DNA of 64,000 nt. It comes from Microthrixaceae bacterium. GTDB lineage: Bacteria; Actinomycetota; Acidimicrobiia; Acidimicrobiales; Poriferisodalaceae. The DNA is taken from the NCBI GenBank assembly GCA_011523825.1, contig WTFX01000005.1, positions 1-64,000 of the forward strand, given 5' to 3'. Positions within the stretch are counted from its first letter, which is position 1. Each line of letters begins with the position of its first letter. A program made the translations under genes and the position numbers. The notes below the pieces were generated by a model. That model saw only the letters and a program-made list of their open reading frames with translations. It made no database searches and had not been told where the DNA came from. Below are positions 1 through 23,496 of the stretch, one piece after another.

Positions 1-3000
1 GGGCGGGGTTGCGGCGTCGTCGTCGGCGACGGCGACGGTGGCTGTGCCCTGCGTGGCCGACACGGTGTAGGCGCTGCCGGGGTTCAAGGTGGCGGTGATT
101 GTGCCGTCGGCTTCTGCGGTGCTGTCGCCGGCGGTGGCGACGGTGTGGCTGACGCTGCCCGTGGTGGGGATGACCACGGTGCGGGCGCCGACCGCGGCGC
201 CGAAGTCGCCGGTCCGGGTGACGGTGACGACCACCGCCAGCGGCGCTGCGGGCGCGGGGGCGGCGGTGACGGTGAACGATGCCGGGCTGCCCTCGGTGAC
301 GCCCGCCCCGGCGGTCACGCTGATCTGCGGCGCCGCGGTCTTCGGCGTGCCGGGGGTTCCGGCCTTGCCGCGGCAGGCTTCGAGGCGGTCGAGCTCGGCG
401 TAGATGCTCTGCCAGAGCGCATTGGGGCCGTTGCCCTGCCAGTTCGGCGTCTGGCGGTCCGCTCGGGCCTTGAGGTCGGCGACCGTGTAGTCGTCGGTGC
501 CCAGCATGGTGTCATACGCGCGGGTGAACGTCTCCACCAGGTCGGGGCGGGCCCCGCTCCACGGATCGGCGGTCTTGGCCTTGACCTCGGCCAGCAAAGC
601 CGTGTCGGCGGTCTTGCACACCTTCGCCGGCGTCTCCGGCGGGTCGTCGTCATCGGCGACCACCAGCGTCGCCGCAGGCCGGCTCGGCGACACCGCATAG
701 CCGCTGCCGCGGTTCAGCGACAGCGTGATCGAGCCGTCGGGCTCATCCGCGCCGTCGTCGGCCGTCGCGACCGCGTGCGCGACCGAGCCGCTGGTCGGGA
801 TCGTGATCGTCTTGGCGCCGGTCGAGGCGCCGAACTCGCCGCTTTCGATCACCGTCACGCTCACCGCCAGCGGCGCGGCCGGGGCGGGGCTGGCGGTGAC
901 GGTGAACGTCGCTGTGCCGCCCTCGGTGACGCCCGCTGCGGCGCTGACGCTGACCTCCGGCGTCGCCGCGGGGGTGGGCGACGGGTCGTCGTCATCTGAC
1001 ACCGCGACCGTTGCGGCGCCCTGGGTGCCGGACACGGTGTAGCCGCTTGCTGCGTTCACGGTGAGGGTGACCGAGCCGTGCGGCTCGTCGGCGCTGTCGT
1101 CGACGGTGGCCACGGTGTGGCTGACAGTGCCGCTGATGGGGACGGTGACGGTCTTCGTGCCGGTCGTGCCCGATGCTGCGTAGTCGCCGCTCTGGGTGAC
1201 GCTCACGCTGACCGCGAGGGGCGCGGCGGGCGCGGGGCTGGCGGTGACGGTGAAGCTCGCTGTGCCGCCCTCGGTGATGCCCGCGCCGGCCGTGACGCTG
1301 ACCTCGGGGGTCGCCGGCGGCTGCTGGGACTGGGTGCCCTCGGTGGTGACGGAGACGGTCTGGCTGGACTTGGCCGCGACCACGCTGCCCTGTTTCACCA
1401 CCATCACCCGGATCTGGTAGGCCGTGCCGGCGGTGAGGCCGGTGATGGTGTGCGAGGTGCCGCTGAGCCGCTTGTTCTGCGGCTGCGTCTGGCCGCCGGC
1501 CTGCCAGCGCAGTTCGTAGCCGTCGGCGCCGTCGGCCTCGTTCCAGGCAACGGCGATGCTGGTCTCGGTGATGCCGGAGATGATCACCATGTTGATGCGG
1601 TCGTCGGCGGGCGCGCCGTCGTTGGCGTAGAGGATGTCCCCCGCCAGGCTGTCGAGCGCGCTGCGCGATCCCAGCGGTTGCGAGGTGGCGGCCGGCACCT
1701 CGGCGCGCAGGTCGACGGCCTCGATGCCGGCGCCGAGGTCGATCCAGTCGCCGCTCAGCGGGAACCCCTCGGGCAGCTCCAGCACGATGCCCCGGTAGAC
1801 GCTCAGGCTGTCGCCCAGCGGGATGTAGCGGGCCCTGCGCAGCTTCCGCTCCAGCGCTCGCTCCTCTGCCGCGTTGGCGGTGGTCTGGTCCACCGCGGGG
1901 TAGGTCTTCACATCGTTCAGGGCCGGATCGGTGCGGAGCCGGTGCACAGAGATCGGGAACTCGGTCTGGCGGTTGAGGGCCAAGAAGTAGCCCATCGCCT
2001 CGTTGTGGTGCACGTGCGCCCGCAGCCGGTCGTCGTCTTCGTGGGTCAGCACGATGGTGTTGTGGCCGGTGTCGACACTGACGAGCGGCGGCGGCACATG
2101 CAGACCGGTGCCGGCTGCGTTGAACACCTCAAGGCGGCCGCGGATCAGCGCGTCGCGCTCGACCAGGTTGTCGTCGGCGGCGTGGAGCACGACCTGGCTG
2201 ACCGTCGCACCCGTGCGCATGACCGGCAACGTGATCCTGGACCCGTCGGCGCTCAGACAGCCGTCGCACACGGCGTCCTTGTCGGAGAAGTCGGCGCCGA
2301 GCGTGACGGTGCGCAGGTCGATCACCGGCGTCACCGCGACGGGGAGCGGCTGCGAGGCGGTCACCGTCAGGCGCACCGCGCCGCTGGCGCCCTCGGCCAG
2401 CGTCTCGCGGTCCTGCGCCAGCGCGAGCCTGACATGGCTGTCGTTGTCGACCACCTGCAACCGCAGCACCATCTCCTTGCCGTCGTAGAACGGGTCGGCC
2501 GATGCGAACCTCAGCGTGATCTCCACCGGGTCCAAGGCCCGGGTGCCGGTGTCGTCCAGCCCGGCCACGACGAGCCTCTTGTTCGAGTGGGCGCCCGTGC
2601 TGAACTGGAGGTTGAAGACCGGCGACGTCGTCGCGTCGGCGCCGCCCTTGGTGACGGCGATGTCGGCTCGCACGAGGTGGGTCGGCCTCTGCGTCAGCGT
2701 GAGGTAGAGGTTCCGCGTCCTGCCCTCGCCGACCGACAGCACGCCGGCCTCGCAGCGCCCGCCTGTGGTGTCGCAGGCGATCTTGGCGGGCGCCGGGACG
2801 TGCTCGTCGTCGATGACGTTCATGACGAGGAGCGTGTCGCCGGCCGTCACCGGGCTCGGCAGGCGGCCGACGTCCACGAGGAAGTGCTCGTGGTCGTCGT
2901 CGCTGTCCTGGTTGGCCCGCAGCGTGGCCGTGCCCGTCAGCGACCGGGCGTCGATCCGAATGCCCGACGGGACGCTGATGTCGCCGGCCTCCGCGGAGAC

Positions 3001-6000
3001 CCGATCGATCTCCAGCGGCACCGTGATCGCACGCGGCAGCGCCGAGGCCAGCGTGGCGGTGATCGTCGCCGTCCCGCCCTCGGGCACCCTGTTCGTCGAC
3101 GCCGACAGCGACAGCCGCGGCGCCGGCTCGTCGTCGGCCACCGTCACCGTCACCGGGTCGGCGGTGACGCGCCGGTACTCGGGGTCGGTCGTCTGGATGC
3201 GGTGCGTGATCACAGCGGTGCGGCCGTTCGGGTTGTCGAACGGGTCGTCGACCGCCCGCACCGTGACCTCCTGGGGCCGATTCCACGTGGAGACCGTGAA
3301 GACGAACGTCCGGCTCCTCAGGAACGTGTTCCCGAATCTGCTCACCAATGCGGCGTCTGGATCGCTCGTCGTGGCCGTGACCAGCACCGTCCGCGACGGC
3401 CGTTTGCCCAGCCTCAGCGTGTAGGTGTCGGTGCCGCTGGGCTCGGCCGCTCGCGTGCTGCCGCCGGTCTGGGTGATGACCACCCCCACCTTGTCGTTGT
3501 CGGCCACGGTCACCTGGAGGTCTGTGCTGTCGGCTGCGGTGTAGTCGCCGCCCGACGTGGCGTGGCTGAGCGCGATCGTGTCGTCTGCGGCGTTGTGGTC
3601 GTCCTCGGCGGCGGTCACTGTCACCGACTGCGGCGTGTTCCAGGTGCCGGCGGTGCCGCCGGTGAACGTCAGCGTGTTCTGGTCGCCGTCGGTGCCGGGG
3701 TCGGTGTCGGCCACCCTCAGGCCCGCTCCGGCGATGGCGACGGTGACCGTGCCAGTGGGCTGCGAGGCCAGTTTGACTGTGTAGTGGGCGCTTTGGCCCT
3801 CGCCGACGGCCACCTTGGCGGGGTCGAACACCAGGCCGCGGGCGTCGTCGTCGGCGATGGTGATCTGCGCCTTCTTGTGGTTCATCAGCGTGTAGGCGTC
3901 GAGGTCGTCCAGCGAGACGATGGCCGACTCGGTGCCCTCGGCGACGCGGTCGTCGGTGATCGCCACGTCGAAGCGGGCCCACAGCGCTCGCTCCGGGACG
4001 GTGACGGTGCCCGACGCCGCCAGGTCTGCGCCCGCGGTCGCCGCGGGGTGGCCGCCGGCGCCGACGCTGCCGCCGGCGACGGTGTAGCCGACCGCGAACT
4101 CGTGCGTACACGGATTGGCCGCGGCAGGTATCACCGACAGGGTCAGCCGCACCGACCCGTCCCCTTCGGCCACTGGGTTGAACTGGTCCGCGATCCCCAC
4201 CTTCGGCCCATTGCACGGCAGGTCGCTGGCCGCGATGGTCAGCGTGTACACCTTGCGCGCCTCGTCCAGCGAATACCGCGACGGCGAGTCCGCCGACGCC
4301 GACAGCGTCAGCACGACTGTCTCCCCGGCCTCCTCCGCGGCGTCGTCGATGACCGCCACCGGGATCACCACGCTGGTCGCCAGCGCCGGCACCTCGACCG
4401 TGCCGCTGTTGGCGATGGTGTAGTCGCCGCTCGCGCCCTCGGTGGCCGTGCCCGAGACGGTGTAGCCGATGTTGAACGCCGTCGCCTGCGCCTGGCTCAG
4501 GTTGACCGTCACGTTCACGGTGCCGGCGTCCTCGTTGACGCTCTTGGCCGACTCCGCGAACGTCGCCGTCAACAACCCGTCGCTGCCCACCACGAACACC
4601 GGCGACATCGCGAAGAGGGAGTTGAGGGCGCCCTTGGCCTCGCTCGCGGTGCTCAGCGGCCCCCACATCCGCGCGTCCGCGTGCCCGCCTTTCTCCACGC
4701 TGCTGCCCGACGCGCCCAGGTGTTTGGTGGACTGCTTGGTGCAGTCGTTGTTGCTGCCGGTCCACGGGAAGTTGCTGTCGCCGTGGGCGGTGCCGTCCTC
4801 GTCGCGCTGGTCGGCGAGGTCGTCGTTCTTCCACCACCGCTCACGCGGGTTGGAGGAGTGCGTCGAGTCCCGCGTGCAGAAGTCCTGGTAGTCGTCGGCC
4901 ACCTTCGCGCCGCCGGCGGCGGCGTCCATCCAGTAGATCGGGATGCCCGTGCGCCAGTTGCTGCCGTCGCGCAGGTCCAGGTGAGTGCGGATGTCGAAGC
5001 TGTTGGTCGAGCCGACCACCTTGAACTGCGACGCATACGGCAGGATCGCCGCCAGCGAGCCGCCCGCCGCCTCGCCCTGCACATAGCCGTCGTAGGTCGC
5101 GATATCGGTCGAGGTGGCCGCCCACCGCGACGTCGTGCGGAACATCAGCCGGAACTTCTGGCCCACCGTCTGAAGGCCCGCAGGCAGCAGCGACCAGTCG
5201 CCGGGCACGGTGTAGGAACCGTCGGCGTTGGCCGTCGCTGACGCTTGGTCGCTCGCACCGATGGTCAGGGTGTGCGCGGTGTTCGTCCCGACCGTGTAGC
5301 CGTCGCCGTCGGCCAGGGTCAGGATGATCGTCTCGGCGGCCTCCTCGGCGGCGTCGTCGGTGATCGCCACGGGGATCGACACGCTGGTCGCGCCGCTCGG
5401 TATGGTCACCGTGCCGCTGCTGCCGGTCACCCCCGCAATGCTGTAATCCGAGCCCCGCGTCGCCGTGCCCGACAGGGTGTAGCCCACCGTGATCGCTGCG
5501 GCCGCGGCCGGGCTGATGTCGACGGTCACGTCGACCGTGCCCGCGTCCTCGCCGGCGCTCGCTGCGGCCATCGCGAACTGCGCCACCCCCGTCGCCGTGA
5601 ACACCGGCGACAGGCCGTAGAACGGCCGCGTTGCCGTGCTCGCTGCCGTTGTGCCGCTGCCCAACGGCGCACGGCCCGAACCGGAATCAGCCAGATAACC
5701 CAACGACACCGCTGCCGAACCCAGCGGGCTGGCCGACTTCGCGCCGGCGCTGGTCGATCCGGTGAAGTAGCCGGATGCGTTCACCGATGCGGCCGTGCCG
5801 GTCTCGTCGTGGGGCGCCGCCTGGTTCTGCCATTCACCCCGCAAACCGGGATACGAGGCCGTCACCCGGTCCGCGGCCGCTGTGTCGCCCAGCCAGAACA
5901 CCGCCACCGCGTCGCTGCCGGAGAACCCGGCATGCGCCGACGCGTCCACCGCGGCCGTGGAGCCCAACACCTTGAACAGTCCCGCATAGGGCACCGTCGC

Positions 6001-15000: not shown

Positions 15001-18000
15001 GATCAGCACCGCCGGCTGCGTGCGGTCGGTGTTGTTCACCGGCACAAAGCGCAGCGTCGCCGTCGTCGGGCTCGACGAGTGATGCGAGAACCGCAGCGCC
15101 GGACTCTGCGCCGAATAGGCGCCCGAGGTCACCAGCGCCACACCGCTCTGCGCCGCCGGATGCAGCGCGAACGTGTAATCCGTGGTCACCGCCGCGCCGC
15201 GCACCCGCAACGGCACCGTGACCGTCTCGCCGCTCCCGAGCGCGTAGCCCAGCGTGACCGTCACGTCCTTGCGGCCCGACGCCCCCGATGCGCCCTCGGC
15301 CACATCGTCGCCGTTGTCCGCCGCCATCGACACGCTCAGCGTCGGCAGGATGTTGACGATGTTCAGCGAGGCCGCGTTGTCCTCAGCCCTGGCGCCGCCG
15401 CCCAGCTTGGTGCCCGACGTCGAGGTCAGAGCGCCCAAGCCGATGTCCACCGTCTCGGTGGCCTCCCGCAGAGCAGCCCCGCTGGTCTCCCACGCGGCGG
15501 ACAGCGTCAGCGCCACCGCGGTGATCGGGCTGGCGGTGGGGCCGGTGAACGTGATCGTCGCGGTGCCGCTGTTCAGATTGGCGCAGCCCACCCCCGCCGG
15601 CAGCGGCGACGGGCAGGCCAGGGTGTAATCGCTGTTGCGGACAGCGGAGCCGGCAAACGTCAACGTCACCGGCAGCACCTCGCCGGCCACCAGCGGCCGG
15701 TCCAGCGTGACGGTGTAGGCGTGCGCCGAGCCCTCGGCCACGTTGTCACCGACGGCCCTGGCCAGCGTCGCCGACGTGGCCTCGCCGTCGGTGATCGTGA
15801 CGCTCGTGGAGGTCGTCGAGCCGAGCTTGTAGGCGTTGCCGCCGGCGGCCACCGTCACCGTCACCCTGCCGTCGGGCTCATCCGTGCTGTCGTCCACCGT
15901 CGCCACGCTGTAGCTCGCCGAGGCCGTGCCGCCAGTGATGGTGACCGTCTTGCCCGAGCCCTCGTCGGTCGAAGCCACATAATCGCCGGCGCCCTCGGCG
16001 ACGGCCAGGTTCACCACCAGGTCCGAGCCCGCGGGCGGTGCGGGGCTGGCAGTGACAGTGAACACCGCCGGCGAACCCTCCGCCACCGACGCCGAGTTTC
16101 GGGCGATCGTCACCACCGGCCGATCTTCGGCCACCACCGTCGCCGTCACCGTCGCGCCCGACACGGCGCCGTTCGGGTAGTTCACCGCGTCGCCGGTGTT
16201 CTGGATCGTGTGCGTGATCTTCGCCGTGTCGCCGGCCGCCGCGCCGGATGCCGACGTCACCATCACCGTCTGCGGCGTGCTCCATATGTTGGCGCCCGAG
16301 GGCGCGAACGTGAGCGTGCCCGGTGACACCGTCGCGTGGGTCGTATCGCCCGACGCCACCGCCACCGTCACGTTGCCCGCCGGCTGGCTCTTCAGGCGCA
16401 CCGTGTAGATGGCGGTCCCCCCGTCGGCGACCACTTCCAGTGCGGAGGCGCTGAGGGTCAGTCCGTGCGGCGCCGGGGTCACCGTGACCTTGACCTCCGC
16501 GCCGGACACCAGGCCGTTCGGGTAGTTCACCGCGTCGCCCGTGTTCTGGATCGTGTGCGTGATCTTCGCCGTGTCGCCGGCCGCCGCGCCGGATGCCGAC
16601 GTCACCATCACCGTCTGCGCGACGTTCCAGGCGGTGGCGCCGGTGGGCGTGAAGGTCAGCGTGCTGGGCGTCACCGTCGCATGGTTCGTGTCGCCCGACG
16701 CCACCGCGACGGTCACGTTGCCGGTCGGCGCCGACCGCAACTTGACGGTGTAGGTGGCCGTGCCACCGTCGGCTTCCACGTCCAGGGTCGATGTGCTGAG
16801 GATCACCGGGGGGGCACCCACCGTGAACTCCGGCGAGATGGCGTAGAAGGGATACGAAGTGCTGCGACTGGTAGCGGAACCGCTGTTCAACGGGTTGGCC
16901 TCAGGGCCCTGGCGTCCAAAGTAAGGCTGTGCCCAGCCCAGGTATTGGTTTGGGGTTCCTTGGTGCACATTGCGAGCACCGTTGAGGCCGCAGCCTGTCC
17001 ATACTCGATATGTCGTCCCCACGGTGACGCCCGACTCGTTCCGGTTGTCGTTCGCCCGAGTGCCGTCCCACGAGTTGTCGTAGAAGTCGAAGTAGTTGTC
17101 CGCCGCCTTCGTGTGGCCCAGCCAGTAGACGGGCACGCCGGCAGAGGCGGCGGTGGTGGAGCCGTCGCCCCATGCGCTGCCGGTCCACATCCCGGTGTTC
17201 ACCCGCGCGTCGGTGGCCGCGCCGCAGGCCACCACTGTGACCAGCCCGCCGTAGGGCTTCAGCGAGGCGTGTCCGGTGCCGGCCGCCACGACCTGCGCGA
17301 AATCGTTGTACACCTCGATGTCGGTCGATGTCGCGTCTCGTTGCTGCGAGGTGACGAACAGCAGGCGGAACTCGTCTCCGGCGCTCAGCCCCGACGGGAT
17401 CAGCGGCCAGTTGTGGGGCACCTCGATGTCGCCCCCCTCATCGTCGACGATGGAGAACGCCAGCGGGGAACCCGACAGCGTTCCCAGCCCGGCGCTTCCC
17501 ACCAGCATCTGGGGCCTGATGCTGCCGGTGCCGAAGGCGATCCTGACCGCCGGCTGCGACCGGTCGTCGTTGTCCACCGGGGTGAAGCGCAGCGTGGCGC
17601 CCGATGCGCCCGCCGTGAACGTCAGCGCCTGCCCCTCCGGGTTGGTCTGCAAGTTGCCAGGTGCCAAGGTGACACCGGTCTGCGTCGCCGGGTGCAGCGA
17701 GATCGTGTAGTCCTGCTCGCGTTCGGGGCCCGTCACCACGAGGGGGACAAAGACGGTCTCGCCGCTCGTCAGCGCGCGGCTGAGGGTGACTTCGATGTCC
17801 TTGTAGCCCGCTGCGCCCGCGCCGCCCTCGATCACGTCGCCGGTGGGGCTGCACAGTGCGACAGCCACCGCATTGTTCTGGCCCGCGGCCGGCGCCGGAC
17901 ACGGGTCCGCCAGCGCGTCGGCGATCGCCAGCGGCGCCGCGTTGTCGGTTGCCGTCACTCCGCCGCCCAGGCCCACGTCGTTGTTGTCGGAGTCCAACAC

Positions 18001-21000
18001 GCCGGAGGTGGTGGTGATGGTGCCCATGCCGATGTCCACCGTCTCGGTCTCGCTCGCCACCGCGTCGGTGAGTGCGGTCAGCGCCAGCGTCACCGACGTC
18101 GCGGTCTGGCCCGTGGTGGGGCCGGTGAAGGTGACCGTCGGCGCGCTGGCGGTGTTCAGGTTGTTGCAGGTCACCCCCGTCGGCAGCGACACCGGACACG
18201 CCAAGGTGAAGTCGGTGTTGCGCACCGCGGCGCCGGTGCCGCTGTTGAACGTGAGCGGAACGGCCAGCGACTCGCCGCTCACCAGCCCGCGGCCCAGCGT
18301 GATCGTGAAGGCGTGCGACGTGCCCTCGGCCACCTCAGACCCCGCGGCGCGCGCCAGAGTTACCGTCGTCGGGTCGTTGTCGAGGACAAGGACTTCAGCC
18401 CGGCCCGGTGAGCCGATCCGGTAGCGAGTGGGGCGGGGCAGGATCTCGCCGATCACCTTGCCGTTGGGCTCGTCCACGCTGTCATCGTGGATGTGGACGG
18501 ACCTATATCTGCCGTCTGTGTCAGTCCACTGTTTCACTTCAAGGTCCCCCAGGTCCGTGGCGACTCTGGCAATGTCGCCCTCCTGCGAAAACCGGTAACG
18601 GATCCCCGCCACCCCCTTGGTGGGGATGATGTTGAACGGCGCCGGCGGCTGGAGGTTGAACGACCTCTCACCCTCGGCCACTCGCTCCGTCGCGACCCCT
18701 AAAAAGTCTGCGGCAATGATGGTCACCACCGGGCGTGTGTCCGTCACCACCGTCGCCGCCACCGTCGCGCCCGACACGGCGCCGTTCGGGTAGTTCGTGG
18801 TGTCGCCGGTGTTCTGGATCGTGTGGGTGATCGTGGCCGTGTCGCTGACCGCCGCGCCCGACGCCGACGTCACCGTCACCGTCTGCGGCGTGCTCCAGAT
18901 ATTGGCGCCCGAGGGCGCGAAGGTGAGCGTGGCCGGCGCCACCGTCACATGCGACGTGTCCCCCGACGCCACCGCCACCGTCACGTTGCCCGCCGGCTGG
19001 CTCTTCAGCCGCACGCTGTACGTCGCGGCGCCCTCGTTGGCGAATACGTCCAAACTCGTCGGCGTCAACGTCAGGCCAGGGATAGCCTCGGTGATGGTGA
19101 CGGCCAGTTCGGGCACGGTCTGGCCCGGGGTGAAGTGGGTCGGGCAGCTGTCCTGGGGGCAGAGGAACAGCGAGACAGTCCCGCTGTCGTCTGCGGCGTC
19201 TGCCAATGCCGCGAAAGTGAAAGCCTTGGTCTGCTCTCCCTGAGCGAAGGTCACCGACGATGGGACGCTGTAGTCCTCGGGTTGTATGTGGGCATGCTGG
19301 GTTCGCAGCCCGATGGGGATGGTCACGGCATGGGGCGCGGGCCGGCTGAGCCCCACGGTGAAGACTTGGCTCTGGCCTTCCGGGATCGTGAGCGTCGTTG
19401 GCGCGGGGGTGCCGGTTCCGCTGCCCCGGTACCAGTTGACGGTGGTGTCGGCGATGGCGGTCTCGGTGATGGTGACGGTGGCGGTGGTCCGCGAGCCGAG
19501 GACGGCGTGCTCGGGCTCGGACAGGGTGACGGTGAAGGTCTCGTCGCTCTCGGACACGCCGTCGGTGGCAAGGGTGATGGTGAAGCCCCGCTCCTGGCGG
19601 CGGTGGCCGAGGAACGCGGTGCCGGTGACCGGGGCCGTGTAGTCGCCGGGCGAGACCGCGGTGCCGGGGGCGGCGGTCCAGGTCACCCAGCCGGGGCGGG
19701 CGGTCTTCTTGCCGGACTTGACGACGGCCAAGGTGACCTCGCCGCCGGCCTCGGTTGCCTTGTAGGTGGCGGAGGACAGTTGCAGCGTGGGGCGGTCGGC
19801 GAGGTCGGTGATGGTGCCGACCGCGCTGCCCATGGTCGAGCTGGCGGCGGGCGGGTCGGTGCCGCCGGTCGGGGTGCCGAGCGTGACGGTGAAGTAGTGG
19901 TCGCCCTCGTAGACGTCGTCGTCGACGGTGGCGACGCTGATGGTGCCCGTGGTGGCGCCCGCGGCGATGGTGACCGAACCGGCGGTGCCGGTGTAGTCCT
20001 TGCCGGCGCCGGTGCCGGCGGCGGACTGGTAGGCGATGTCTGAGCCCACGCCGCGGCCGTCGGTCAGCGTGTAGGGGACCGTGATGTTCGCGCTCGCGGC
20101 GGCGGGCAGCTTCACCGTGAACTCCACCGGGCTGCCTTCGGCCGCAGCGGCGGGCGCCACCGTCACGGTGTCGTCGATGGTGAACACCCCCGACAGCGCG
20201 TACAGCGGCTTCTCCGCGAACTCATCGGCAGGCACCGAGCGGGGGGCGCGGGGGTTAGCGCCGCTGATCGGCGGGTTGCGTCCCCAGTCGCCCATACAAC
20301 GCGCATCAGAGTCAAACGAGGTTCCACTAACCTCCCGCAAACCCAGAGGCCCCTTGTCCCCATCATTGGAAGTTGAGTCGTCCACGTTCAGATAGCCGAC
20401 CTTCACCTTGTCGGCGCCCATCAAAAACAGCAGATCATTGACTGTGGTGGTGTAGCAGGAGTAGCCCGGGCTGCCGTTTTGGGCGCCGCCGGTCCAGTAG
20501 CCTTCGCTGTGGACAGTGGCGGCGGAGCCGTCGGCGTGTTTGGGGTTGGCTTCGTCGTCCCAGGAACCGTCTTGGAAATCGTCGTTGTCGTCGGCGACCT
20601 TGGCGCCCTTGACCCAGTAGATCGGCGCACCCGTGCCTGAGTCGAAGTTGTTGCGGACCCGGGCCTGCCCGCGCCGGTCCGGCAGATCCTTGATGGCCGG
20701 ATAGGGGCTGCCCACGCTGACGGGGGGTCGGTGGCCCACGTTGACGACGGCCTTGAACGACCAGGCATACGGCAGCAGCCCCGGCACGGGGCCGACGGCG
20801 GCGGAGGAGTGGCCCACACCGATGATCTCGTCGCGGACGAAGTCGTCGTAGTGCTGGCCGCTGGTCGCCTCGGCGGTCTCGGTTGCCTTGGTGACATACA
20901 GCAGGCGGAACGTGTCGCCGGGGTTGAGGCCCGTAGGCGTGAACGCCCAGTCGGCGGCCACGACGGCGTCCTCGTCGTCGTGGATGCCGAACCAGCGCAG

Positions 21001-23442
21001 CCTCGCCGGGTCGCTGCTGGTGACCCACGCCGCCACGCCGCCGCCCAAGTTGGTGGGCACGGGCACGAACGGGATTTCGTCGTCCCCCAAGCCCGGGGCA
21101 ACGAGCTGGTTGACGAATGAGATCCAGAACAGCTCGTCGAATCCGTCGCCGTCGTCGAATTTGTCGCGTGCCCGCATCCGGATGGTGGCACTCTGCGCGC
21201 CCTCGCCGCGGAACTCGAGTATGCGGTAGCCGACGACGGGCGCTGTGAAGATCTCCGGGAACTCGAGGGTGGCGCCCACCGCATCGTCGTCGAGCGTCAT
21301 GACGATGTCGTTGTAGTGGGCTGGGTAGGACAGGTTGGCGCCTACGCGGATCCCCCGAACCGTCCGCGCGCCCGAACCGGTCTGCTCGGCATTCAGATAC
21401 AGCGGCACGCGAACGTACTCGCCGGCGGCCAACGGGCGGCTCAGGCTCACCGTCAACGTGTCGGCCCGCGTCGCGTCGCCCTCGGCCAGCTCCTGCGACG
21501 GCGACGCCTTCGTGCCGCCTCCGGCCAGGGTTACCGTGGTGGCGTCGTCGTCGCGCACCGTCACCGCCAGATCCCGCGACACGCTGCCGTACCCGCCTCC
21601 CGCCGCGCTGTGGGTGATGGTGAAGGTGCGGTCGACTTCGTCGGTGTCGTTGTTCTTGTCGCAGTCGAAGTCCACCGTCTGGGGCATATTCCAAACGCCG
21701 GCGCCCGACGGCGTGAAGGTGAGCGTCTTGGAGGCCGTGTCGTCCGGGTTGAAGACAAAGTCGCTGGACGCGACCGTCACCGTCACGCTGCCCGTCGGCG
21801 CCTGTGCCAGCCTCACTTGGTAGCGGTAGGTGTCAGAGCTGGAGCACTGGTTCTCGCCGAGAATCTGACTGGCGGGCAGATGCCCGGTGCCGCTGCCGAA
21901 CACGAAGACGATGCCGGGGCCCGACTCCTCGAGGGTGAACTGGTAGCTGCTCTGGGCAGTGAGGCCCGCGGGGCAGCCGCTGCCCGAGCACGCCCCGCCG
22001 GCGATGGTCGGCTCGAAGTGCTCCGCCGACTGCCACCCGTTGGAATGGGTCGCAGTGCGCACCGTCACCCGCTCGCGCACCTTGTTGCCGTCGTCAGCGA
22101 CGGCGGTCACTGCCACAGTCGCCTCAGACGCCGCGGACGAGCCGCCGGTGAACACAACACTGCTGCCATTGACGGCCACCCCGGTCGGAGAGCCGTCCAG
22201 CGCGATGTTGAAATGAGTGCCGAGCGCAGCACCGTCGAAATACAGCGGCACCGTCAACGACTCTCCCGCCACCAGCCTCCGGGCCAGCCTGACGCGGAAC
22301 TTCGCCGTGTCAGACGCGTTGCCCTCCGTGGCCAAGTTGTCAGGGGTGGTCGCTGCCAGGATCTCCACCGGGGTCGGATCGTCGTCGATCACAGTGAACG
22401 GCACCGGCGGCAGGGCCAGCGCCTGACCACCCGCCGGCCAAGGATCGGGAGTGGTGGGATTCACTTGCCTGAGCCTGGACGCGTAATTGTCGTTGTTGAT
22501 GAACGCCTTCCAGGTGACCTCACCGGTGTGATCACCGCCCGGCGCGTCCACACTGTTCCGCTCTGCGTGGATGAGCATCGTGAAACTGCGCTTCGAGGTG
22601 CCGCGAGACAGCACCACCTGGGTGGACACCCGTGCAAGCGGCCCCGAATAATTCGTGTCGTTCGGCGTGACCACAGCCTCCAAGGCGATCCCCTCGGCGG
22701 GCAGCGTGTTGCCCGTGAACAGCGTCTCGTTGAAGTCGATGACCACTGCGTCGCGCGTGTCCTCGCGGTCGTTGTTGCTCGTCGACTCCAGCATCACGGT
22801 GTCGCCGTCGGTGACGGTGATCGTGCCCCGAGCCGTGCCGGTGCCCGAATAGGTCAGCGTCGTGTCCGCTCCGGCGGCGTCGTTGACGGTGACGGTCCAG
22901 TCGCCCAGCACGGTGCCCGCGGCGCAGCTCGACGACGTGCAGAGCTGCACGCCGAACGTCTCGCCGCCGCTCTCAGCGGTGCTGTCAGCGATGGCCCGAG
23001 CCTCGAAGTTGACATAGCCGTGGGTGGGAGCAGGAGGGCGAGGCTGCCCCGGCCGGCGGCGGGGCCGGGTCGCGCCCTGCAGCGCCACCTGCTCAGAAGT
23101 GCCCGGCTCGACGATGACGTTGGCGTCTGAGCGCTGAGAGGCGTTGGGGTTGGTCCTGTCCCATACCGTGAAATCCCCCGCCTCGGCCGTATACGGACTT
23201 ACCAGCGGCTTCACACGCAACCAGTAGCCGCTGTGCCCGGATGGGACGTTGGCAACCAGGAACTCGCGAGACTGGCCCTCGACAATCTCTGTGCGATGCA
23301 GCCAGGGCTCGGGATACGAAGACGGAACCTGCGTCTGCGCCTCAGCGGCCGGCACCGTCGCCGGGGCCACCACTGCGGGCACGACTGCCAGCAGCGACCC
23401 CCCCAAAGCTGTCGCCAGCGCCGAGGCAAACCAGCGGCGCAC
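1..23442 (-). CDS. Giant secreted Calx-beta repeat protein (C-terminus beyond left edge)
   Basis: A single minus-strand frame is open from GTG 23,442 to base 1 with no stop, giving at least 7,814 residues. I confirmed the frame by translation at about 23,400, 20,616, 4,764, 1,590 and 318; all lie in the same phase, and no other minus frame there gives sensible protein. GAGGAG at 23,450-23,455, seven bases before the GTG, fixes the start. A signal peptide (residues 1-35) is followed by dozens of roughly 100-residue beta-sandwich repeats with Calx-beta signatures (VTEGG..ATFTVT near the start, D-D-D near the end), repeats of the NWNTPQTVTVTA type, seven copies of an unnamed module, one fibronectin III domain and a small two-cysteine helical domain. 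Calx-beta domains bind calcium and are frequent in bacterial surface adhesins, so adhesion or matrix formation outside the cell is the likely role. The anchor, if any, lies outside the window. Composition is Thr/Val/Ala/Asp-rich and Cys-poor. Confidence 0.93.
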   Translation of the reverse strand, partial: MRRWFASALATALGGSLLAVVPAVVAPATVPAAEAQTQVPSSYPEPWLHRTEIVEGQSREFLVANVPSGHSGYWLRVKPLVSPYTAEAGDFTVWDRTNPNASQRSDANVIVEPGTSEQVALQGATRPRRRPGQPRPPAPTHGYVNFEARAIADSTAESGGETFGVQLCTSSSCAAGTVLGDWTVTVNDAAGADTTLTYSGTGTARGTITVTDGDTVMLESTSNNDREDTRDAVVIDFNETLFTGNTLPAEGIALEAVVTPNDTNYSGPLARVSTQVVLSRGTSKRSFTMLIHAERNSVDAPGGDHTGEVTWKAFINNDNYASRLRQVNPTTPDPWPAGGQALALPPVPFTVIDDDPTPVEILAATTPDNLATEGNASDTAKFRVRLARRLVAGESLTVPLYFDGAALGTHFNIALDGSPTGVAVNGSSVVFTGGSSAASEATVAVTAVADDGNKVRERVTVRTATHSNGWQSAEHFEPTIAGGACSGSGCPAGLTAQSSYQFTLEESGPGIVFVFGSGTGHLPASQILGENQCSSSDTYRYQVRLAQAPTGSVTVTVASSDFVFNPDDTASKTLTFTPSGAGVWNMPQTVDFDCDKNNDTDEVDRTFTITHSAAGGGYGSVSRDLAVTVRDDDATTVTLAGGGTKASPSQELAEGDATRADTLTVSLSRPLAAGEYVRVPLYLNAEQTGSGARTVRGIRVGANLSYPAHYNDIVMTLDDDAVGATLEFPEIFTAPVVGYRILEFRGEGAQSATIRMRARDKFDDGDGFDELFWISFVNQLVAPGLGDDEIPFVPVPTNLGGGVAAWVTSSDPARLRWFGIHDDEDAVVAADWAFTPTGLNPGDTFRLLYVTKATETAEATSGQHYDDFVRDEIIGVGHSSAAVGPVPGLLPYAWSFKAVVNVGHRPPVSVGSPYPAIKDLPDRRGQARVRNNFDSGTGAPIYWVKGAKVADDNDDFQDGSWDDEANPKHADGSAATVHSEGYWTGGAQNGSPGYSCYTTTVNDLLFLMGADKVKVGYLNVDDSTSNDGDKGPLGLREVSGTSFDSDARCMGDWGRNPPISGANPRAPRSVPADEFAEKPLYALSGVFTIDDTVTVAPAAAAEGSPVEFTVKLPAAASANITVPYTLTDGRGVGSDIAYQSAAGTGAGKDYTGTAGSVTIAAGATTGTISVATVDDDVYEGDHYFTVTLGTPTGGTDPPAASSTMGSAVGTITDLADRPTLQLSSATYKATEAGGEVTLAVVKSGKKTARPGWVTWTAAPGTAVSPGDYTAPVTGTAFLGHRRQERGFTITLATDGVSESDETFTVTLSEPEHAVLGSRTTATVTITETAIADTTVNWYRGSGTGTPAPTTLTIPEGQSQVFTVGLSRPAPHAVTIPIGLRTQHAHIQPEDYSVPSSVTFAQGEQTKAFTFAALADAADDSGTVSLFLCPQDSCPTHFTPGQTVPELAVTITEAIPGLTLTPTSLDVFANEGAATYSVRLKSQPAGNVTVAVASGDTSHVTVAPATLTFAPSGANIWSTPQTVTVTSASGAAVSDTATITHTIQNTGDTTNYPNGAVSGATVAATVVTDTRPVVTIIAADFLGVATERVAEGERSFNLQPPAPFNIIPTKGVAGIRYRFSQEGDIARVATDLGDLEVKQWTDTDGRYRSVHIHDDSVDEPNGKVIGEILPRPTRYRIGSPGRAEVLVLDNDPTTVTLARAAGSEVAEGTSHAFTITLGRGLVSGESLAVPLTFNSGTGAAVRNTDFTLACPVSLPTGVTCNNLNTASAPTVTFTGPTTGQTATSVTLALTALTDAVASETETVDIGMGTITTTSGVLDSDNNDVGLGGGVTATDNAAPLAIADALADPCPAPAAGQNNAVAVALCSPTGDVIEGGAGAAGYKDIEVTLSRALTSGETVFVPLVVTGPEREQDYTISLHPATQTGVTLAPGNLQTNPEGQALTFTAGASGATLRFTPVDNDDRSQPAVRIAFGTGSIRPQMLVGSAGLGTLSGSPLAFSIVDDEGGDIEVPHNWPLIPSGLSAGDEFRLLFVTSQQRDATSTDIEVYNDFAQVVAAGTGHASLKPYGGLVTVVACGAATDARVNTGMWTGSAWGDGSTTAASAGVPVYWLGHTKAADNYFDFYDNSWDGTRANDNRNESGVTVGTTYRVWTGCGLNGARNVHQGTPNQYLGWAQPYFGRQGPEANPLNSGSATSRSTSYPFYAISPEFTVGAPPVILSTSTLDVEADGGTATYTVKLRSAPTGNVTVAVASGDTNHATVTPSTLTFTPTGATAWNVAQTVMVTSASGAAAGDTAKITHTIQNTGDAVNYPNGLVSGAEVKVTVTPAPHGLTLSASALEVVADGGTAIYTVRLKSQPAGNVTVAVASGDTTHATVSPGTLTFAPSGANIWSTPQTVMVTSASGAAAGDTAKITHTIQNTGDAVNYPNGAVSGATVTATVVAEDRPVVTIARNSASVAEGSPAVFTVTASPAPPAGSDLVVNLAVAEGAGDYVASTDEGSGKTVTITGGTASASYSVATVDDSTDEPDGRVTVTVAAGGNAYKLGSTTSTSVTITDGEATSATLARAVGDNVAEGSAHAYTVTLDRPLVAGEVLPVTLTFAGSAVRNSDYTLACPSPLPAGVGCANLNSGTATITFTGPTASPITAVALTLSAAWETSGAALREATETVDIGLGALTSTSGTKLGGGARAEDNAASLNIVNILPTLSVSMAADNGDDVAEGASGASGRKDVTVTLGYALGSGETVTVPLRVRGAAVTTDYTFALHPAAQSGVALVTSGAYSAQSPALRFSHHSSSPTTATLRFVPVNNTDRTQPAVLIDFAAAVTATGGVPVSSSKPTGEVFFVIEDDETGDAEVPDGWALKPSAVMPAGEFRLLFVTSQRRDAAATDIEEYNRFVQRLVATGGHASIKPYAGFITVVGSTAAADARANTGMWGGSPAGYTDGSTSASSAGTSVWWLNAEKAADNYYDFYDGTWDNTATKDESGADIDTHGGGAAHLPNAVWTGSVGGGTGRDGHELGTANPQLGVPGVQGGPNNNNPLQVLSHGVGVAQPKTRTRYLYAMSPVFAVDTADGVTVSPTALSLTELHASDAEKTYTVKLDTDPGVDVTITVVSGDTDAVAVDTNSVMTGDQNTLTFTHGSSGNWGTAQTVTVRALNDADAVGEQDVEITHAATAASGAYDEIDVDAVEVDITDAGHGVIITGAPVSVKAGETAVYSVRLKSRPTGNVVIRPTSGATARATVSGDLTFTSTGDNWKTPQNVTVTGVAAGTATISHAVQTTADSANYPTTLTIADVAVTVGLPSLSVSPASLSLTEGGAAGTYTVTANEDPGAGVTVTVTVTSDDGGAARVHGPGGSAGTTATLTFVGGSGGNSNWSTPQTVTVTAVDDGDADDEDVTITHTSTATGSSGPFHQAAIASVAVDVTDAGHGLTLSASALDVFANEGAATYSVRLKSQPAGNVTVAVASGDTTHATVDTDTSTDGNQLTLTFAPSGANAWNTPQTVTVTSASGAAVSDTATITHTIQNTGDATNYPNGAVSGATVAATVVTDTRPVVTVVAETHLGVATTQVAEGQTMHSAQVPAPFGIRHTGPPGRSVQVRFRRAMEGDYARTPGHLRDFQEWISPGAGSDASIPISDDNVDEPNGKAIVTVLPRPTHYRIGSPGRAEVLVLDNDPTTVTLARVAGSEVAEGASHAYTITLGRGLVNGESLAVPLTFNSGTGAAVRNTDFTLACPMTLPTGVTCNNLNTASAPTVTFTGPSTGQTATSVTLTLTARADTVPRETETVDIGMGTITTTSGVLDSDDNDVGLGGGVTATDSAAALTITDVLPALSVSMAADNDNDVTEGASGASGRKDVTVTLGYALSGSETITVPLRVRGATVTTDYTLALHPATQNGVTLLTSGSYSAQNPALRFSAHSSNPTTATLRLVAVDNERRTQPGVIIDFHGAVAKSSFTPTVTTSGDVFFVVVDDETGPVEVPRDWALKPSGVAASGEFRLLFVTSQTRDATPRNIREYNAWIQRQVVATGHASVQPYAGFVKVLGSTEFDGQARENTGMWASSAHTDGSTSSSTDGDGISIWWLNGGKVADHYHDFFDGSWDGGADQSALAKNQAGADRGNTWVWTGSNADGSRHGTATQRLGQITPRAGRLSADQISRSFVGRANSYAFYGMSPVFQVEGVEASLAVNNSGAVTEGGTLTVTVNLGANAPSALEIPVQMRTSGSPTASTDDFTLSGSPAGTVSIAMGQNSGMLTFTAVADDIDEPVNMETLVLEFGTLPEGVVAHATDDTEVSITITDADTAGITVTETGTPVNTVVDEDGTPTATDTYTVVLDSKPLSNVTIRVTADDGTVAKVDGPDTQTAYTTTEDLVFTPSNWNTAQTVTVQGVQNIIDDPNDKRTVDVTHTVQVGDTSPDGQYTTGMDLSDHDVEVEVIDDDAQPTAVELEASISTATENGGAQTVTVTATVQGATRFGAAQTITGAISSLQDTSSVNYVDVTTSALSITIPVGAQTATSTFTLTPANDNVHETDQTVTVGGAIAPATGVTITSDTISVTNDDAAPTRIDLSVNPTTIAEAAGATTVTVTATVHGGKTFGTAKTVTVAVAGQNETNKVKFATASVSNITIGAGSATGMATFTLTPTANTFDEQNATATVSGTAPGVTTLNSATVSVTDDDASPAGITFGLSPMTIAEDGGAATVNYTLDVQTGTGGTTYGEDVVVTVAVAGSGDTNVVGFTPVADQTSTIPKGTSAQVTGSFTLTPTDDTDDEYDETVTVTATATDVHGNAIVMAPVEITITDDEDTTVTMTAPTGAVAENGGTKDVTLTLSRALAGSEAVTVPLEVVGVTVESDYTVALHGTNTGVTIDTTTSPFSSQNPALKFAAGASSAVLRFTALPNTDRTQPYTVVRYGSGVTAANLDFQTPPSGGPVGFVITDDETGDVLFPVDSDLMPTHSSIVPGNYEFRFVFATSGARDASSSDIADYDAFIRSALAEGHADIVPFAGFFKVVGSTAAADASAHASFATGDGGRPVFWMGNQTFADKVADNDAGLRGEWSNQTPYTEAGTAATANAGGYFTGSTSVGAKSANPLGSASVTLGYLSDSGSGRAPLGSGTTTANTGTRPFYGLSAVFKADRSPAVTIVPKAGGESVAEGSPAVFTVSISPAPTDPVGVTLWITDETGKPSYTNAADRSANPHLNAVTLSSTTTSADFSVNTVNDSNDEPDGGVVVRVIAAEGYIRGGNDLATVAVTDGEATSLTLTGSSAGVTEGLDKSFTLSLGRRLVSGETVTVPLTFAGTATRGTDYTFTCSGTGVTCHDLNSTAGSANPRVVFANGAQTAAIVMAAVLDANTTPVEPNETVNIGVGTPTAITGLSGGVAAPTDSAPQFSIVNRSQITLASFAQSTYTATEAAGAGRTVTVTVDYTPSALAALTIPITVTGTAVAGSGKDYTRTGGASITTAVGDTSSTITVTIADDAFDDDAETIIITLSDGANWDLGANPSTTVTITDDDSAPEVTLSASPATVAEFAGATTVTVTGTMQGTTRFEENTSLTVGIAGSGGANVVGFTAPSSVTLPIAAGAASGTADFTLTPTDDSTVESDETVTLSATEAGATVNSGTIAVTDDDSSASLSLTLSAAAGDVAEGASGAAGYKDVTVTLGSALTGSQTVTVPLTVTGVTVATDYTLALQPAAQAGVTLLTSGAHSAQNPAVRLAAGATSAVLRFTPVDNSVRTNPAVVIAYGTGSRLPSGTGVSLGTPAGSPVVFAVADDETGAIEVAGNWALKPSGVGPGQQFRLLFVTSGTRDASSSAIADYDAFVRAAAAQGHAATVPYAGLFKVLGSTAAVDASAHAGFSGSDAVAVFWLGDTAAADRVTASYPGLRGEWQNQAAPHDETGTAASVNASGYFTGSTSAGAKSASPLGSAAVSLGYLADSGSGRAPLGSGTTAASTATRPFYGLSPVFTATGVAQFAMAAASAGEDAGTVDVTVDISPAAAAAITVGYTLSGTATRGSDYSIAGVTGSSGTVTIPSGATSVSIPVAITDDAAEEAAETIILTLADGDGYTVGTNTAHTLTIGASDQASATANADGSYTVPGDWSLLPAGLQTVGQKFRLMFRTTSRWAATSTDIATYDGYVQGEAAGGSLAAILPYASQFKVVGSTNSFDIRTHLDLRDGSNWRTGIPIYWMDAAAGGAKVADDYQDFCTRDSTHSSNPRERWWKNDDLADQRDEDGTAHGDSNFPWTGSNNDCTKQSTKHLGASGSSVEKGGHADARMWGPLSTASEAKGALNSLFAMSPVFVVGSDGLLTATFAESAKSVNEDAGTVNVTVNLSQAQATAFNIGYTVSGTATEGASGDYTIANSGTVEVPALATSVVIPVAVIDDAAEEAGETVVLTLSASADSPSRYSLDEARKVYTLTIAASDLPCNGPKVGIADQFNPVAEGDGSVRLTLSVIPAAANPCTHEFAVGYTVAGGSVGAGGHPAATAGADLAASGTVTVPERALWARFDVAITDDRVAEGTESAIVSLDDLDAYTLMNHKKAQITIADDDARGLVFDPAKVAVGEGQSAHYTVKLASQPTGTVTVAIAGAGLRVADTDPGTDGDQNTLTFTGGTAGTWNTPQSVTVTAAEDDHNAADDTIALSHATSGGDYTAADSTDLQVTVADNDKVGVVITQTGGSTRAAEPSGTDTYTLRLGKRPSRTVLVTATTSDPDAALVSRFGNTFLRSRTFVFTVSTWNRPQEVTVRAVDDPFDNPNGRTAVITHRIQTTDPEYRRVTADPVTVTVADDEPAPRLSLSASTNRVPEGGTATITATLASALPRAITVPLEIDRVSAEAGDISVPSGIRIDARSLTGTATLRANQDSDDDHEHFLVDVGRLPSPVTAGDTLLVMNVIDDEHVPAPAKIACDTTGGRCEAGVLSVGEGRTRNLYLTLTQRPTHLVRADIAVTKGGADATTSPVFNLQFSTGAHSNKRLVVAGLDDTGTRALDPVEITLRFASADPFYDGKEMVLRLQVVDNDSHVRLALAQDRETLAEGASGAVRLTVTASQPLPVAVTPVIDLRTVTLGADFSDKDAVCDGCLSADGSRITLPVMRTGATVSQVVLHAADDNLVERDALIRGRLEVFNAAGTGLHVPPPLVSVDTGHNTIVLTHEDDDRLRAHVHHNEAMGYFLALNRQTEFPISVHRLRTDPALNDVKTYPAVDQTTANAAEERALERKLRRARYIPLGDSLSVYRGIVLELPEGFPLSGDWIDLGAGIEAVDLRAEVPAATSQPLGSRSALDSLAGDILYANDGAPADDRINMVIISGITETSIAVAWNEADGADGYELRWQAGGQTQPQNKRLSGTSHTITGLTAGTAYQIRVMVVKQGSVVAAKSSQTVSVTTEGTQSQQPPATPEVSVTAGAGITEGGTASFTVTASPAPAAPLAVSVSVTQSGDYAASGTTGTKTVTVPISGTVSHTVATVDDSADEPHGSVTLTVNAASGYTVSGTQGAATVAVSDDDDPSPTPAATPEVSVSAAAGVTEGGTATFTVTASPAPAAPLAVSVTVIESGEFGASTGAKTITIPTSGSVAHAVATADDGADEPDGSITLSLNRGSGYAVSPSRPAATLVVADDDDPPETPAKVCKTADTALLAEVKAKTADPWSGARPDLVETFTRAYDTMLGTDDYTVADLKARADRQTPNWQGNGPNALWQSIYAELDRLEACRGKAGTPGTPKTAAPQISVTAGAGVTEGSPASFTVTAAPAPAAPLAVVVTVTRTGDFGAAVGARTVVIPTTGSVSHTVATAGDSTAEADGTITATLNPGSAYTVSATQGTATVAVADDDAATPP
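365..630 (-). other. Small helical two-cysteine domain in the giant protein
   Basis: Residues about 7605-7693. It reads as helices rich in Ala, Lys, Asp and Leu between KVCKTADTALLAEVKAK and YAELDRLEACRG, with a Trp-containing centre (TPNWQGNGPNALW). The two cysteines sit at the two ends and could pair. It interrupts the beta repeats. I do not recognise a named family. Confidence 0.6.
1335..1615 (-). other. Fibronectin type III domain in the giant protein
   Basis: Residues about 7276-7369. The hallmarks are present: ITETSIAVAWNEADGADGYE with the core Trp and Tyr, then LTAGTAYQIRVMVV and a closing TVSVTTEG. It is the only such domain I found and marks the change from the long irregular region (about 1,630-2,500) to the last three Calx-beta repeats in the window. 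Confidence 0.85.
4590..5228 (-). repeat. Unnamed surface module, copy 7 of 7
   Basis: Residues about 6072-6285, separated from copy 6 by a single Calx-beta-like repeat. Landmarks: WSLLPAGLQTVGQKFRLMF, IPIYWMDAAAGGAKVADDY, PWTGSNNDC and LFAMSPVFVVG. Two cysteines are present (FCTRDST and NNDCTK), which could form a disulfide outside the cell. Confidence 0.75.
5600..6165 (-). repeat. Unnamed surface module, copy 6 of 7
   Basis: Residues about 5760-5948. Landmarks: WALKPSGVGPGQQFRLLFV, GHAATVPYAGLFKVLGST, VAVFWLGDTAAADRV, GYFTGSTSAGAKSASPLG and RPFYGLSPVFTATG. It pairs with copy 5 as a recent duplicate. Confidence 0.75.
8078..8665 (-). repeat. Unnamed surface module, copy 5 of 7
   Basis: Residues about 4927-5122. 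Landmarks: YEFRFVFATSGARDASSSD, GHADIVPFAGFFKVVGST, RPVFWMGNQTFADKVAD, GYFTGSTSVGAKSANPLG and RPFYGLSAVF. The WTGS of copies 1-4 is replaced by YFTGSTS, a variant shared only with copy 6. The C-terminal half is nearly identical at DNA level to 5,600-5,780, which points to a recent duplication. Confidence 0.75.
10935..11548 (-). repeat. Unnamed surface module, copy 4 of 7
   Basis: Residues about 3966-4170. Landmarks: WALKPSGVAASGEFRLLFV, GHASVQPYAGFVKVLGST, ISIWWLNGGKVADHYHDFF, TWVWTGSNADGS and AFYGMSPVFQVEG. It shows the consensus pattern most clearly and is free of cysteine. Confidence 0.75.
14262..14910 (-). repeat. Unnamed surface module, copy 3 of 7
   Basis: Residues about 2845-3061. Landmarks: WALKPSAVMPAGEFRLLFV, GHASIKPYAGFITVVGST, SVWWLNAEKAADNYYDFYDG, AVWTGS and RYLYAMSPVFAV. 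The DNA aligns well with copy 4 at an offset of about 3,360 bp, together with the Calx-beta repeats on the promoter-distal side of both copies' partners. Confidence 0.75.
14700..15750 (-). repeat. Large intragenic DNA repeat, partner of 11,340-12,410
   Basis: The stretch aligns by eye with 11,340-12,410 at a constant offset of about 3,360 bp. It covers the start of the unnamed module and the next Calx-beta repeats; for example the DNA around 11,830-11,980 and 15,190-15,340 matches at most positions. The two blocks are one higher-order unit of the giant gene duplicated in tandem. Confidence 0.7.
16818..17440 (-). repeat. Unnamed surface module, copy 2 of 7
   Basis: Residues about 2002-2209. 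Landmarks in order: WPLIPSGL, FRLLFVTSQQRDATSTD, VPVYWLGHTKAADNYFDFYD, WTGCGLNG and YPFYAISPEFTV. Cysteines occur at VVACGA and WTGCG. It shares the opening FRLLFVTSQ-RDA segment closely with copies 3 and 4. Confidence 0.75.
17930..19060 (-). repeat. Large intragenic DNA repeat, partner of 11,995-13,160
   Basis: The stretch aligns with 11,995-13,160 at an offset of about 5,934 bp and includes the shared segment around GTGTTCAGGTTGTTGCAGGT. Shorter related copies of its right-hand part (the ACGGCGCCGTTCGGGTAGTT element) occur at about 16,160 and 16,510. This is a second duplication layer within the giant gene. Confidence 0.7.
20181..20975 (-). repeat. Unnamed surface module, copy 1 of 7 (longest)
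   Basis: Residues about 823-1088 of the giant protein. The copy opens with a WAFTPTGL...FRLLYVT segment, has a GAPIYWVKGAKVADDNDDF core and DGSWDDEAN, then WTGG, and closes with PLYALSGVFTI. It is about 60 residues longer than the other copies because of insertions, and it carries two cysteines (GYSCY and DARCMGDW). I do not recognise a named domain. Confidence 0.75.
23338..23442 (-). other. Signal peptide of the giant protein
   Basis: Residues 1-35 start VRRWFASALATALGG and continue as an Ala/Leu/Val-rich hydrophobic segment ending in a small-residue AEA site before Gln36. This is a standard export signal. The RRWF near the N-terminus loosely resembles a twin-arginine motif, but a Sec signal explains it equally well. 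Confidence 0.85.
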
Positions 23443-23449
23443 AGCCGAG

Positions 23450-23455
23450 CTCCTC
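23450..23455 (-). promoter_or_regulatory. Ribosome binding site that sets the giant gene's start
   Basis: GAGGAG with seven bases to GTG 23,442. The alternative TTG at 23,457 overlaps this site and would place the signal peptide behind extra residues, so the GTG is preferred. Confidence 0.8.
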
Positions 23456-23496
23456 AAGACCGCCGACCCGCTCTAGCGGCTGGACCGGGCGGCCAG

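Follow-up and report, generated by a model that had tools for sequence, protein, structure and literature searches.

Endostatin, the C-terminal domain of the animal basement-membrane collagens XVIII and XV (PF06482), carries two conserved disulfides and binds extracellular matrix or acidic glycans in animals. Bacterial proteins with a predicted endostatin-like structure have been described in Leptospira: these Len proteins are reported to bind laminin, five of the six also binding fibronectin (PMC2063517), and the family has been tied to DUF1554 and to PDB entry 1koe (PMC2387172). In sponge symbionts, Calx-beta is reported as an enriched eukaryotic-like domain of Ircinia MAGs, in a survey that gives Actinobacteriota as not enriched for eukaryotic-like proteins (PMC9531527), and attachment genes are reported to have been transferred laterally among such symbionts (PMC8163846).

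The locus described here belongs to an acidimicrobial genome (G000, 3.3 Mb, 31 contigs). The window, i.e. the 64-kb stretch of DNA that was analysed, spans positions 1-64000 of contig C22 (WTFX01000005.1, 68,671 bases) and opens within a giant gene, in whose product a domain with a predicted endostatin fold recurs seven times among Calx-beta-like sandwich modules. Giant Calx-beta adhesins are a known kind of protein; the new part is the predicted endostatin-fold domain family, which was not found in Pfam.

The giant gene and its start

An open frame on the minus strand runs from position 23457 to position 1 and comprises 7,819 codons with no N. The gene itself (1-23442, minus strand) begins with GTG at 23442, continues for 7,814 codons with zero stops and leaves the contig at its left end. 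Over 1-23442, the remaining five frames contain 11, 139, 325, 289 and 57 stops. An in-frame TAG (23473-23475) lies upstream of the start, and GC at codon positions 1, 2 and 3 of the giant frame is 0.62, 0.56 and 0.92. The stop-free frame of more than 23.4 kb, put forward as signal-led in the preliminary description, is confirmed as real by these figures.

GTG 23442 fits better as the start than TTG 23457, because a Shine-Dalgarno-like GAGGAG (23450-23455, minus strand) precedes it by 7 nt and because the N-terminus recurs in two same-genus relatives, G003 and G009. This N-terminus, VRRWFASALATALGGSLLAVVP...AEA/QT (23338-23442, minus strand), looks like a Sec signal peptide, and its pattern VRR..A.ALA...GSLLAVVP is also present in both relatives.

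Opposite the gene, long plus-strand ORFs occupy 1078-5241, 5245-10995, 11053-16326 and 16336-18411. Their GC content peaks at codon position 1 (0.90-0.95), which is the mark of antisense shadow ORFs; plus-strand genes across most of 1-23130 were therefore rejected, and the ORFs of 1078-18411 are regarded as shadows, not genes. The earlier impression that the most prominent frames are antisense does not hold, since no ORF is longer than the minus frame. Being the longest frame, with a strong codon bias, it also seems unlikely to be overlooked by automatic annotation.

Upstream of the giant gene, the plus strand encodes two proteins (23899-24759 and 24746-25615), one with a transposase zinc ribbon of the IS1595 type and the other a nucleotidyltransferase of the AbiEii type. 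Neither tRNA genes nor Rfam families were found in the 64-kb window.

The sandwich modules

Iterated profiles resolve the window protein into 52 domains, 45 sandwich modules and seven endostatin-fold domains, which cover 84% of its length. The 45 Calx-beta-like modules (1-23200, minus strand) fill the space between the other parts. PF03160 matches residues 1-4000 at 107.6 bits (cut-off 27) in two stretches, the best of which covers residues 1220-1332 (19462-19800, minus strand); residues 3901-7819 gave no PF03160 match at E≤0.01, and all modules beyond the Pfam stretches were assigned via iterated profiles only. When seven sandwich modules were run singly, none exceeded any Pfam cut-off, one of them scoring 25.7 bits against the 27 bits of PF03160. 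A fibronectin type III (FN3) domain is found at 1378-1587 (minus strand; PF00041, 39.7 bits, cut-off 25), and Calx-beta and this one FN3 are the only Pfam families above cut-off at E≤0.01 in the giant ORF. Of the two families named in the preliminary description, Calx-beta thus stands as two stretches above cut-off, with few of the ~45 modules exceeding it, and FN3 as a single copy. The calcium-binding type of repeat proposed there is partly borne out at the level of domain family, and the seven endostatin-fold domains are not mentioned in it.

In the PDB, the sandwich part matches sequences of Na/Ca exchanger Calx-beta domains and of designed FN3 proteins. The LapA profile scores 18.1 bits on the ORF and 19.6 and 16.5 bits on single modules, all below its cut-off of 27.

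The seven-copy domain

The seven copies of the second domain type, each ~200 aa long, make up about 20% of the window protein. All lie on the minus strand. Copy 1 (20170-20982) is the longest and most divergent, and its fold is assigned by homology to copy 4 (10930-11559), the modelled one; copies 2 (16813-17448), 3 (14248-14919), 5 (8071-8673), 6 (5587-6180) and 7 (4582-5235) are likewise profile matches. Landmarks of the domain are W.L.P.G, FRLLFVTS.RDA, Y..FV, PYAG, W, WTG and SPVF.

Alignment A3 holds 39 of 44 copies from the window and loci L055-L070, the five not used being four incomplete ones and the long copy of the window, and alignment A4 holds 15 of these 39; the doubtful record L068 was retained in both. 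At E≤1, Pfam returned nothing for the seven window copies save one 10-residue match (E 0.24). At E≤10, the 39 copies matched eight families, each in one to three copies, the best being a plant eIF-4B model in one copy (E 0.0019); these scattered matches are taken as chance. No PDB chain was matched at E≤10 by the sequence of the domain or by the profile of A3. Cysteines are absent from 26 of the 39 copies and number exactly two in the other 13, a pattern that suggests optional disulfides.

The AlphaFold2 model of the domain, made from the 39 copies, has a pLDDT of 92.6 and a pTM of 0.90. The five best PDB matches found by Foldseek are all endostatin (four collagen XVIII, one collagen XV; E 4e-6 to 4e-4), and the sixth is a C-type lectin-like protein (E 0.27). 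VIA-align superimposes the model on endostatin with Z 16.6 and an rmsd of 2.6 over 163 of 178 residues at 17% identity, the next fold reaching Z 4.4. A plain C-type lectin fold, at Z 4.4 against 16.6 for endostatin, was rejected. No viral structure was matched at E≤0.001.

A second model, led by a Bryobacterales copy, was built from 15 of the 39 sequences behind the first, a subset to which neither the window nor any Acidimicrobiia-labelled record contributed. It has a middling pLDDT of 67.7, and its other four models range from 42.8 to 56.7. Endostatin again takes the first two places among its structure matches (E 1.1e-3 and 3.9e-3, Z 12.1-13.2), the third match lying at E 3.8; none reaches E≤0.001. 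An endostatin fold is well supported as the predicted structure of the seven-copy domain. At the level of sequence, neither PF06482 nor PF07588 exceeds its cut-off in any of 14 domain-bearing genomes or gives a match at E≤10 in G000, and none of the 39 copies matches PF06482 at E≤10.

A Bryobacterales MAG encodes a separate protein of 226 aa (L071, 1348-2028, plus strand), in which PF06482 and PF07588 score below cut-off and PDB endostatin is matched at E 0.0028. Judged from its sequence, this appears to be another bacterial endostatin-like type, and the same genome also carries the seven-copy domain.

Related giant proteins and the missing 3' end

The first 500 residues of the window protein were matched in eight of 61 genomes (own included), all of the window's genus (one of 34 genera). 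G003 and G009 contain complete stop-to-stop frames of 6,527 and 6,528 codons, in which the genes start ~70 codons inside. The module order E-E-E-F-ENDO-x-F-E-E-F-ENDO is common to the window protein, G003 and G009, and in the complete relatives it surrounds two endostatin-fold copies. Both complete proteins finish in a Calx-beta-like domain, and inspection of their ends by eye revealed no C-terminal anchor.

A single ORF of G004, in the same genus, combines two endostatin-fold domains with three CWB2 stretches (L034, 5438-10924, minus strand). It encodes a relative shorter than the window giant, with its CWB2 cell-wall repeats near the protein end, so the mode of retention may vary from protein to protein. 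A short, probably helical segment near the C-terminus is shared by the window protein (322-645, minus strand) and the products of the L025 and L063 ORFs; its likeness across lineages was judged by eye, and the window copy has no Pfam match.

The window starts at base 1 of C22, and the 3' end of the giant gene is missing. Related repeats are found at the ends or starts of contigs C3, C5, C9, C15, C20 and C24 of G000 and on its short contigs C17 and C26. C-terminal pieces on C3, C5, C15 and C24 end in ...GTATVTI(T/K)DND followed by a stop. If one of these four completes the gene, the full protein would have ~7,929-8,077 aa; the register of completion is unsure, since for three of them an earlier repeat of the window protein is a better match than the final one. 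Many assembly breaks of G000 lie inside this family of giant repeat proteins, and draft genomes will consequently under-count such genes.

Distribution of the domain

A pattern scan of a collection of 84,980 species found 16 loci carrying the domain, in metagenome genomes. Eight bear the name prefix jk18x, and the other eight the prefixes p16x (two) and CO, SB, COS and CAR (six together), which presumably stand for sponge projects. The jk18x prefix is used for Caribbean Ircinia sponge MAGs (PMC9531527), and the sponges sampled in PMC8163846 are seven, including Coscinoderma, Carteriospongia and Ircinia ramosa. One jk18x genome falls inside the window's genus, where contig C133 of G007 (77,063 bases) has the same domains as jk18x40bins.18.

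Among 1,583 non-seed genomes drawn evenly over five phyla, with at most 8-13 first-look candidates scored per genome and the seed genome of each phylum omitted, one carries the domain: 0 of 395 in the window's own phylum, 0 of 295 in that of Rhodothermales, 1 of 250 in that of Dehalococcoidia, 0 of 246 in that of Bryobacterales and 0 of 397 in that of Pseudomonadales. In the window's order, nine of 148 genomes (own included; at most 20 candidates scored per genome) contain it. There is a strong hint that the domain is restricted to sponge genomes. It was not found in the plasmids or phages searched, and 13 pattern matches in viral_contigs yielded no relatives.

Not counting L057 and L068, the deposited labels of domain-bearing genomes are Acidimicrobiia, Dehalococcoidia, Rhodothermales, Bryobacterales, Gammaproteobacteria and Alphaproteobacteria, i.e. 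five phyla. Rhodothermales is the firmest cross-phylum case because the domain-bearing ORFs of L064 and L065 carry a T9SS sorting domain at their ends (TIGR04183, 36 bits, cut-off 23), a mark of the secretion pathway native to that lineage; the remaining phyla rest on deposited labels. The domain directly follows a signal-peptide-like stretch in L059, L061, L063, L064 and L069. Other relatives repeat it within giant frames of 6,827 codons (G196) and 6,473 codons (G183, the doubtful genome of L057).

The two records left out of the phylum count are apparent binning or labelling errors. L057 (WTGP01000020.1), labelled Gammaproteobacteria, is co-linear with the window gene along 5,065 nt at 83% identity, and 1,484 nt of it are 98% identical to L058, labelled Acidimicrobiia; it is probably mis-binned or mislabelled, recent transfer being the remaining option. 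L068, labelled Dehalococcoidia, clusters with copies from L056, which has the same sample number, and no near-identical DNA was found between the two.

In a tree of 55 copies, those of Bryobacterales and Rhodothermales cluster by lineage, and the deep branches are weak, with 25 of 52 inner branches open. The tree excluded copies that cover fewer than 150 positions of the profile, redundant identical copies and a number of loci, including L026, L028-L033, L037, L045 and L048-L054. Transfer of the domain between lineages is likely on the basis of this topology.

No paper on an endostatin-type domain in sponge symbionts appears by title among the literature matches listed, and endostatin goes unmentioned among the listed matches on sponges and eukaryotic-like proteins. 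The matches for an endostatin domain or fold in the metagenome literature comprise a fly paper only. The word is likewise not found in the main text of PMC8163846.

Possible function

With a probability of roughly 55%, the giant gene encodes a secreted multi-domain adhesin or matrix filament whose endostatin-fold modules would bind ligands of the host or of the matrix. The producer, an acidimicrobial relative of sponge symbionts, would export the protein via its signal-peptide-like start. The sandwich modules would line up into a long stalk, to which calcium might lend stiffness. A sandwich-type domain is ~4 nm long, and ~52 domains would span ~0.2 micrometre; the several hundred nanometres proposed earlier are probably too long. 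Along this stalk, the seven endostatin-fold modules could act as repeated ligand-binding knobs, and, by analogy with animal endostatin, their repetition may add avidity to the binding of the host's extracellular matrix or of acidic glycans within it. The nearest tested analogues of these putative binding modules would be the Len proteins of Leptospira.

The signal-like stretches, the T9SS sorting domain of L064 and L065 and the CWB2 repeats of L034 all point to an extracellular setting, as far as sequence features can tell. Since no anchor could be discerned at the C-terminus of either complete relative, the protein probably enters the sponge mesohyl or the bacterial matrix, where it would be free or retained by non-covalent contacts. 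The giant, exported-looking, repeat-built protein of the preliminary description is supported; as for its putative cell-surface placement, an anchor was seen in neither complete relative, though a shorter relative has CWB2 repeats.

Alternatively, the protein could be a filament of the bacterial biofilm or capsule matrix that serves cell-cell cohesion, its modules binding bacterial polysaccharide or one another and no host ligand. No host ligand is known, a relative carries CWB2 repeats, and free-living marine bacteria are reported to use Calx-beta/cadherin-like adhesins in biofilms (PMC12153261). However, a module of such general use would not be rare in all five phylum samples, and the sponge-derived look of the named domain-bearing genomes is unexpected for it, which leaves this explanation unlikely. 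Still more doubtful is a nutritional role, in which the endostatin-fold domain would be a lectin-like module on a long tether that scavenges or binds host or dietary glycans. Endostatin is close to the C-type lectin fold, the source of the next structure matches, and symbionts are reported to use sponge glycosaminoglycans (PMC8163846), but the lectin matches are weak (Z 4.4) and Pfam detects no enzyme family in the giant ORF. It is very improbable that the frame is an assembly chimera or a decayed gene held open by GC-rich codons: many contig ends of G000 are broken at repeats and few stops are expected in GC-rich frames, but zero stops stand against 11-325 in the other frames, and complete related frames with the same module order in two same-genus genomes argue against an assembly accident and led to rejection of a repeat chimera.

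A wider proposal can be made tentatively, at somewhat less than even odds: sponge symbionts of several unrelated phyla may share an undescribed, laterally spread endostatin-fold family that engages or imitates the basement-membrane-type matrix of the animal. Inserted into giant exported proteins, in up to many copies, this family would give symbioses between animals and bacteria a molecular handle in common. The proposal bears on the means by which numerous unrelated bacteria persist extracellularly within a single sponge. A domain that looks exported and is predicted to fold like an animal matrix protein, and that is rare in general yet occurs in sponge-type genomes from several phyla, is a testable candidate for a means of attachment shared among them.

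Comparison with known systems

Large Calx-beta/cadherin-like adhesins such as LapA and BapP share with the giant protein a stalk of tandem beta-sandwiches and some PF03160 matches. The giant protein differs from them in its predicted endostatin-fold modules and its signal-peptide-like start, and the LapA profile stays below cut-off. Among the eukaryotic-like proteins of sponge symbionts (ankyrin, cadherin, FN3 and Calx-beta), Calx-beta is common to the giant protein. Unlike those domains, the seven-copy domain belongs to no Pfam family found here, and surveys based on Pfam would therefore miss it.

Endostatin itself has the fold predicted for the seven-copy domain, with Z 15.5-16.6 across 151-165 residues. 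With 16-18% identity and no PF06482 match above cut-off, the likeness is one of fold level, not of shown descent. The two disulfides of endostatin are not kept, 26 of 39 copies having no cysteine, and endostatin terminates a collagen chain, whereas the giant ORF has no collagen family among its Pfam matches (E≤0.01).

The Len proteins of Leptospira (DUF1554, PF07588) are bacterial, exported and predicted to be endostatin-like, as the seven-copy domain appears to be, but none of the 14 genomes with the seven-copy domain has a PF07588 match above cut-off. Len proteins are outer-membrane proteins described as paralogues from a single genus, whereas the present protein of nearly 8,000 aa carries seven copies of the domain distributed along its length. 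The domain would constitute the second endostatin-fold family of bacteria, next to the Len proteins that bind host matrix.
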